The notes under the pieces: model-generated
What the model saw: the letters and a program-made list of their open reading frames with translations, nothing else
Database searches by the model: none
Told to the model about the DNA's origin: nothing
Assembly: GCA_028351415.1 (NCBI GenBank)
Contig: JAOMJV010000004.1
Coordinates: forward strand, 1 to 60,204
DNA: 60,204 nucleotides
Direction of reading: 5' to 3'
From: Candidatus Nitrosopumilus sp.
GTDB taxonomy: Archaea > Thermoproteota > Nitrososphaeria > Nitrososphaerales > Nitrosopumilaceae
In this document: positions 1 through 2,214 of the stretch, in pieces
How the letters are laid out: each line of letters opens with the position of its first letter
How positions within the stretch are numbered: position 1 is the stretch's first letter
Made by a program: the position numbers and the translations under genes

Positions 1-964
1 TTTCACCCTGAACTCCAGATGTACCAGTTGGACCTTTCGATCCTGGAACTCCAACAGGACCAGTTAGTCCTTTGTCACCAATAGTACCTTGTGGACCTTT
101 GTCACCAGAGGGTCCAGGTGGGCCACGAATTCCAGAAAGTCCTTTGTCACCAGATAAACCAGTTGGACCTTTTTCACCAGAGGGTCCAAGAGTTCCTTTT
201 AATCCAGAAAGTCCTTTGTCACCAATAGTACCAGTTGGACCTTTGTCACCTTTGTCACCTGTTGGACCAGCAGTGCCTTTGTCACCTTTGTCACCTTTGT
301 CACCTGTAATTCCTTTGTCGCCAGAAAGTCCTTTGTCACCTGTAATTCCTTTGTCACCTTGTGATCCTTTGTCACCTGTAGCACCTTTGTCACCAATAGT
401 ACCAGTTGGACCAATTGGTCCCTTACCACCAAGTGGTCCTTGTTGTCCAGGCGGACCAGGTGGACCTTTGTCACCAGACGGACCTTGTGGACCAGCAGTG
501 CCTTTGTCACCAGATGGACCTCGTTCACCAGATGCACCAGTTGTTCCTTTAGAATTAAAATTAGAAGTAGTTTTAGAAGTAGATTTAGATTTTACATTAT
601 TGTTAGATGTTTGATTTTTTTCTTTTTTAATAGAAGGTTTAGTAGTAGATGGTTCAGAAGATTTTCTTAACCTGACATCAAAAATAGAGTATAGTGAAGA
701 GAATAAGTCATTTACAACAACCCAAACAACATCTACATCATCGATAGATTTAGGAAGAGGGTTTTTAGAGTCGCCTACTACTTCAGAAAAAATACCATCC
801 TTGACCCTAAGATGAAAATTTCCTGTCCATAAAGGAGAAAAGGTTTTTCCACGAATTTCCTCATCAGATGGTTTAACATCAATTAGAGAGATTTGAGCTT
901 CATAAACACCAGATTGCTTAAATGGTGACTGTCCCTGTATTTCAATTCGTGGCTGAGATGACAC
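1..964 (-). CDS. Collagen-like (Gly-X-Y repeat) protein, GTG start, C-terminus runs off the left edge of the window
   Basis: Reverse-complement reading from GTG at 964 (in-frame TAA 12 nt upstream) gives [57 protein letters not shown]...[20 protein letters not shown]..., then a K/S/T/N-rich linker, then about 60 GXY triplets ([28 protein letters not shown]...). Not in the ORF track, which shows only antisense/shadow ORFs here. Confidence 0.9.
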
Positions 965-1089
965 AGTGGTTGGTTAATGTTTGAAGTATTTCAGGATTTG
1001 GATCGCTAAATCTAACCAAAATGCCAAATTACGAAGAATAATCTCAATTAAAATGGTATTTATCTAGATGAAGATAAAAAATTGACAAG

Positions 1090-2214
1090 ATGTTTGGTAA
1101 AAAAAATAAAAAAGTAGAAGCAAAATTAGATAAAAAAGGATCAGACAGCCCAGTTACCAAAGAAACCAGTTTAGTGGATCCAAGTTATAATATTAAAAAA
1201 TTATTTAAAAAAGGCATCAATTTAATGGCAGATGAAAAATTAGACGACGCCATAGAAGTGTTTGAGCAAGCATTACGAATTGAACCAGACAACATTGAAA
1301 TTTTAATGAAATTAGGATATGCAAGATTTCATCTAGAGGATCACAATGATGCACTAAAAGTATATGATAAAATTTTAGAAATAGATGTAACAAATCCAGA
1401 AGCATGGAATCTTAAAGGATTAGTTCATTACGAACAGAGAAAATATTCACAAGCATTAGATGCAGTCAACAAAGCAATAGATTCAGATAAGACATACGGA
1501 ATGGCATGGTACAACAAGGCATGTTTCTTATCATTGTTAAATCAAGTACCAGAATCACTGCAAGCACTAAAACATGCCATAGAAATTGATGTTAAAAATG
1601 CTAGAAAATCAATTAGAGATAAAGACTTTGTTAACGTAAGGATTGAAGAAGGATTCAAAAGAATTGAAGAAGTTGTTGTTCTAGAATCAGTCAAACAGGG
1701 ATACCATACAATAGGAGCAATTGTTTGGACAACATTCTTAGATAAAATTGATGCAGAAAAAGCTTTAAGAAAATTACTAGAGAAAGGATTAATTGTACAA
1801 AATGAAAAACGTGATGGCCTAAGTAAAATACCAATTTATGATCTTTCAGATAACTTTGCAGAAAAAGTGGGTAAAGAAAAAATAGGATTATTTGGAATTA
1901 AAAGAAAGAAACTTCCAAAGCCAGTTAAAAATTTGAAAATAATGAGTCAAGCAATTCAATCGGCAAAAGAAGCAATTGAAGAAGCAGACATAGAGAAAGC
2001 AGTAGAGGCTTTTGATCAATTCATTGATCCAGCAAAATCAGGAGAGCAAATGATAGAGAATTTCTTTGAAGCTCACAGGGAAATAAGATTATGGAAAATA
2101 AGATTAAGTGATAGAGGAGCAGATTACATGATTGATAACAAAGACAAGATGATAGAGGTTTTAGAAAATGTTGAAGTTACGATTACTAAAAAACTTAGAG
2201 ATGAAATAGCCTAG
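1090..2214 (+). CDS. TPR-repeat protein with C-terminal wHTH-like/helical region
   Basis: Repeated TPR signatures (INLMADEKLDDAIEVFEQALRIEPDN, AWNLKGLVHYEQRKYSQALDAVNKAI, AWYNKACFLSLLNQVPESLQALKHAIEID). Confidence 0.85.
   Translation: MFGKKNKKVEAKLDKKGSDSPVTKETSLVDPSYNIKKLFKKGINLMADEKLDDAIEVFEQALRIEPDNIEILMKLGYARFHLEDHNDALKVYDKILEIDVTNPEAWNLKGLVHYEQRKYSQALDAVNKAIDSDKTYGMAWYNKACFLSLLNQVPESLQALKHAIEIDVKNARKSIRDKDFVNVRIEEGFKRIEEVVVLESVKQGYHTIGAIVWTTFLDKIDAEKALRKLLEKGLIVQNEKRDGLSKIPIYDLSDNFAEKVGKEKIGLFGIKRKKLPKPVKNLKIMSQAIQSAKEAIEEADIEKAVEAFDQFIDPAKSGEQMIENFFEAHREIRLWKIRLSDRGADYMIDNKDKMIEVLENVEVTITKKLRDEIA

Follow-up and report, generated by a model that had tools for sequence, protein, structure and literature searches.

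The left end of the stretch of DNA analysed here raises the question of what a long Gly-X-Y repeat on the minus strand of an archaeal contig encodes, and whether its product acts inside or outside the cell. The window of 60,204 bases is the whole of contig C34, which belongs to an incomplete (78% complete) Nitrosopumilus-type genome of 1.07 Mb. The collagen-like frame runs on the minus strand from position 964 to position 2, starts with GTG, is immediately preceded by an in-frame TAA, and is open for 321 codons up to the contig end. Residues 1–100 (665..964, minus strand) constitute an N-terminal domain that AF2 predicts to be a beta-sandwich and for which no Pfam or PDB relative was found. 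This domain is followed by a low-complexity, K/S/T/N-rich linker of residues 101–139 (548..664, minus strand), which evolves fast according to dN/dS, and, from residue 140, by the first 60 complete Gly-X-Y triplets (8..547, minus strand). The triplet run crosses the contig end (1..7, minus strand), which lies within the collagen gene at a DNA repeat. The Pfam Collagen model PF01391 was the sole Pfam match in this frame, with a score above its cut-off (101 bits, E 2.8e-29, cut-off 27.2), and the 60 uninterrupted triplets compare with a longest run of 8 when the residues of this protein were shuffled 2000 times. A preliminary description of this DNA had placed here an archaeal collagen-like protein on the minus strand that starts at GTG 964, downstream of an in-frame TAA, and has a globular N-domain, a K/S/T/N-rich linker and about 60 uninterrupted triplets. 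Each of these features was borne out, and intact orthologues of the protein were found in relatives.

The GTG start is supported by a conserved element with the core GAAATACTT just upstream of it. In the window, this promoter-like element reads CGATCCAAATCCTGAAATACTTCAAACATTAACCAACCACT and is located directly 5' of the GTG (965..1005, minus strand). The core is common to most Nitrosopumilus relatives, where the element has the form CGATCTAAATACAGAAATACTTGAA and is located in the gap that separates the collagen gene from the divergently oriented TPR gene. We infer that the element is a promoter, and it could be a shared or regulated one. The divergent neighbour in the window encodes a TPR protein of 374 aa (1090..2214, plus strand; identified by Pfam), whose synteny with the collagen gene is family-wide. 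Across the intact relatives, the collagen gene is embedded in a conserved chromosomal synteny block of housekeeping genes, and its neighbours (TPR, DRG-type GTPase, rhodanese, sulfite reductase) look cytosolic.

The gene had been described as leaving the window, and it does continue to the left of position 1; the edge itself marks where the contig stops, at a DNA repeat. The only other site with a collagen match in this genome was at the first bases of contig C14 (L008:2-631, plus strand), which begins in frame with 58 triplets, followed by the 34-residue tail GGMSSEQKAIFKELLEILTTKDIINTEEQIKLLSYLY and a stop codon. The flank of C14 carries an Ala/Lys/Arg-rich basic ORF and a DRG-type GTPase, which also come after the collagen gene in complete relatives, where it is intact. 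This synteny suggests that C34 and C14 carry two halves of one gene, which, joined in this way, would have at least 118 triplets in all. The intact gene of a close relative (L012) has 592 codons, with a 156-nt repeat in the collagen stretch; the 45 nt at the very end of C34 match it at two places. Other assemblies were also broken within the orthologue: G060 and G038 at contig ends, and scaffold G118 by N-gaps inside the collagen gene, with one collagen piece placed elsewhere. The collagen gene thus breaks assemblies and is probably under-reported. In the single-contig genome G135, the core gene (L102) seems to have a frameshift in its collagen repeats, which may be a sequencing error or the sign of a recent pseudogene. 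The short basic protein that adjoins the collagen gene on C14 (ATKRKAATRKAAPKRTATKKTA..., with histone-H1-like repeats; L008:760-920, minus strand) was found at the same place in L039, L111 and L117; it adjoins the collagen gene in many Nitrosopumilaceae, and its repeat number varies.

The distribution of the gene was determined with a profile of the N-domain as the search query. An orthologue was present in 206/250 Nitrosopumilaceae genomes, in 122 of the 131 good ones and in all 22 Nitrosopumilaceae genera sampled, nearly always in a single copy. The few good genomes without a match may lack the gene because of assembly losses at the repeat. The gene was retained in small genomes of 0.7–1.2 Mb. 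Outside Nitrosopumilaceae, the 44 genera sampled from the order yielded no orthologue (22/66 genera matched in the order-wide sample), and in a phylum-wide sample the matches listed were all within Nitrosopumilaceae. A scan of 84,980 species returned 136 relatives of the N-domain; the names of the 80 of these 136 that were listed were of Nitrosopumilaceae type or thaumarchaeal without further specification, apart from L179, which is oddly labelled 'Nitrososphaeraceae'. A search with a profile of the tail recovered the same genes and, elsewhere, weak partial matches only. Judged by these sequence searches, the collagen-like protein is a near-universal, single-copy core protein of Nitrosopumilaceae, and the earlier remark on the rarity of collagen-like proteins in archaea does not apply to this family. 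A separate open frame of 2518 residues with many collagen matches, distinct from the core gene, was observed in a complete Nitrosopumilaceae genome (G222:C1:1251841-1255236).

Comparisons of near relatives showed that changes in the collagen gene fall mostly at third codon positions. In pairs that include the gene of the window, dN/dS was 0.10–0.34 for the N-domain and 0.11–0.16 for the collagen part. Over all pairs, the N-domain ranged from 0.05 to 0.34 and the collagen part from 0.05 to 0.16, with a single pair at 0.33. The tail was the most constrained part (0–0.07 in most pairs, 0.21 in one), and the linker reached 0.19–0.84 in the pairs where it was defined. These ratios indicate that purifying selection is strong on the head, the collagen part and the tail.

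The AF2 model of the N-domain had a pLDDT of 93 and a pTM of 0.85. No significant match to this domain was found in Pfam, NCBIfam, PHROG or PDB sequences, and a fold search with Foldseek gave nothing significant; the best PDB fold match, the SgrA adhesin 5fce (E 0.33, TM 0.58), was not usable. In all 64 complete orthologues, the Gly-X-Y run was uninterrupted, with 84–163 triplets, and was followed by a tail of 33–37 residues. Across these 64 sequences, the X position was occupied by Pro (40%), Asp (17%) and Glu (12%), and the Y position by Lys (28%), Gln (16%), Thr (14%) and Pro (13%). In bacterial collagens, charge pairs take the place of hydroxyproline, and by analogy the composition of the archaeal repeats points to a reliance on such pairs in its place. 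Triple-helix formation and trimerisation are predictions from the sequence. With a triple-helix rise of 0.286 nm per residue, the 84–163 triplets would correspond to a rod of ~70–140 nm if they are triple-helical. The C-tail was predicted to be a two-helix hairpin (pLDDT 94). A C-terminal trimerisation-type element had been suggested as something to look for downstream, and this hairpin of 33–34 aa is what was found there, with a putative trimerising role. Assignment of the tail to the SHOCT domain (PF09851) was rejected, as isolated tails did not match this model, and its matches in the genome were located elsewhere and not at the tail.

The absence of a hydrophobic leader, noted initially for this gene, extends to the orthologues examined: neither a leader nor a membrane helix was detected by a hydropathy measure in 81 distinct orthologues, and no LPXTG motif was present in 104 family sequences. 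When this measure was applied to a secreted collagen of strain MY2, a leader was plainly evident. The lack of a recognisable export signal suggests that this collagen may act inside cells rather than outside, and this lack does not by itself establish a cytosolic location.

The reading that we prefer, and to which we give an even chance, is that the gene encodes a homotrimeric collagen-like rod, a core protein of the whole family, which is made and most likely kept in the cytosol as a scaffold or tether. The C-terminal helical hairpin would trimerise the chains and set their register; this role is suggested by its position, at the site where collagens commonly have a trimerisation domain, and by its being the most conserved part of the protein. 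The 84–163 triplets would then close into a triple helix, with Pro at X and Asp/Glu–Lys pairs as its stabilising elements, and we count the predominance of Pro at X over Y in favour of this. Three beta-sandwich heads on flexible linkers would be displayed at the end opposite the tail and could bind a putative partner. The rod itself would be a rigid spacer, a scaffold or a tether. That the gene is single-copy, evolves slowly, keeps its neighbours, is retained in small genomes and encodes no known export signal speaks for such a scaffold or tether inside the cell rather than for an adhesin at the surface. A cytosolic trimer was one of the options in the preliminary description; it is the candidate that fits best. 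Against a cytosolic location counts the fact that most characterised collagen-like proteins work extracellularly.

The main rival explanation, which we consider possible but unlikely, is a surface or extracellular fibre or adhesin that is exported without a classical signal peptide and is possibly associated with the S-layer. The spore-surface collagen BclA, which is synthesised in the cytosol before its deposition, makes such a route conceivable. Most collagens of prokaryotes are found at the surface (PMC8968730). Furthermore, an 'LPXTG-anchored collagen-like adhesin' was detected in the proteome of the related AOA Nitrosotenuis chungbukensis MY2, and a role in the S-layer was suggested (2026 paper, PMC13037477), which also counts against the cytosolic reading. 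The NCBIfam model behind this name, NF038329 (Scl2), matched the core gene of MY2 best among the MY2 collagen ORFs tested (167 bits vs 44–49 bits), at a cut-off of 325. However, MY2 contains the core gene as well as other collagen loci, one of which has a leader and is a separate, typical secreted collagen, and the detected 'adhesin' may be the product of any of them. Signal peptide, transmembrane segment and anchor were absent from all orthologues examined, and the single copy, the slowly evolving head and the conserved synteny are unlike variable adhesins. The additional collagen-like genes of MY2 are located on contigs C20 and C21 (L200, L204) and carry GATGPQGIQG repeats; one has a signal peptide and the other FN3-like and FG-GAP-like stretches, and they are possibly halves of one secreted protein split by assembly.

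The adhesin label itself can be traced to the repeats. The streptococcal adhesins Scl2/SclB and Scl1/SclA (NF038329, NF038330) resemble the core protein in their long Gly-X-Y stretch with charged triplets and in not needing hydroxyproline. Scores stayed under the curated cut-offs of these models: in the members tested, the Scl2 model matched the Gly-X-Y repeats at 110–245 bits, with the N-domain and the C-tail outside the match. The repeats thus pull automatic annotation towards the Scl models, whereas the core protein, which has neither a signal peptide nor an LPXTG anchor, does not support the label. Bacillus BclA-type exosporium collagens are made without a classical export signal and have a large C-terminal beta domain. 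They share with the core protein the order of an N-terminal part, a collagen-like region and a C-terminal domain. In contrast to them, the core protein has a globular head at its N-terminus and a 34-aa helical hairpin as its tail, and these archaea do not form spores; neither the C-terminal beta trimerisation domain nor the N-terminal exosporium targeting segment was found in it. Other archaeal collagen-like proteins also contain Gly-X-Y repeats but are sporadic, and those examined in MY2 have a leader or extracellular-type domains.

An improbable alternative is that the Gly-X-Y stretch is not triple-helical and that the protein is a disordered, highly charged one, acting in hydration or stress protection or as a phase-separating linker. 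The variable triplet number and the richness in D/E/K/Q would be compatible with this. However, the perfect register in all 64 complete orthologues and a collagen part that is under strong purifying selection argue against disorder, as does the conservation of a helical tail at the expected position of a collagen trimeriser.

We consider it very unlikely that the gene is a tail-fibre gene which the host captured from a virus or a mobile element. Collagen-like tail fibres of phages (PHROGs 5073, 6320, 819, 1806) are likewise collagen rods with globular ends, but their match to the core protein was limited to the repeats. The N-domain had no match in IMG/VR contigs, phage records or PHROGs and no significant viral fold match, and the locus belongs to a conserved chromosomal housekeeping block. 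The particle-associated fibre offered earlier as an alternative was therefore not borne out. Finally, an artefact, i.e., a chance repeat or a wrong strand with the proline-rich plus-strand ORF 72..614 as the real gene, is refuted for practical purposes, because this ORF is open in the window but, in relatives, stop codons interrupt the frames antisense to the collagen stretch, which marks it as an antisense shadow rather than the translated gene it might have been, and because the codon-position pattern, dN/dS and the intact orthologues agree with the minus-strand frame.

Two candidate partners of the collagen-like protein were considered. A signal-less protein of 94–101 aa (EFKMLDYxRLENDFVSFELEDGTIVKVKVDLDRVG...), which looks cytosolic, was found directly 3' of the collagen gene in four genera (L105:4159-4443, minus strand; L106:7851-8135, plus strand; L190:4363-4668, plus strand), in one case starting at the base right after the collagen stop codon. 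It was rejected as an obligatory partner since it was absent from the Nitrosopumilus genomes checked. Lysyl oxidases have been reported in Thaumarchaeota (PMC4448552). Cross-linking of the Lys-rich collagen by these enzymes was rejected as a general partnership, as PF01186 is sporadic (18 matches in 300 genomes, 14 being Nitrosopumilaceae genomes). The PF01186 proteins (L207-L218) occur sporadically in AOA genomes and are unlinked to the core collagen gene.

Collagen-like proteins were already known in bacteria, phages and other archaea. The new elements here are the occurrence of one such protein as a core component across a whole family, its orphan head, its short tail of helices and the fact that known export signals are missing from it. 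The head and the tail were not found outside Nitrosopumilaceae, either in the order-wide N-domain search or in the tail-profile search, apart from weak partial matches of the latter. No publication on this family was found in the literature searched, which included few subscription papers. A bolder idea, which we regard as doubtful, is that an intracellular triple-helical rod of 70–140 nm is a structural part of Nitrosopumilaceae cells (cytoskeleton-like, shape-related or nucleoid-tethering) that is absent from the rest of the order, to which the coccoid Nitrososphaera-type AOA belong. Nitrosopumilaceae have been described as rod-shaped, compared to these coccoid AOA (PMC13037477), and this correlation of cell shape with the collagen gene is weak, as it represents a single evolutionary event. 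Nitrosopumilaceae are ammonia-oxidising and among the most abundant archaea of the sea and of aquifers. A single, slowly evolving, signal-less collagen rod in these organisms would run counter to the notion that collagens of prokaryotes are optional adhesins of the cell surface, and the core collagen would provide Nitrosopumilaceae with a testable structural protein of their own.
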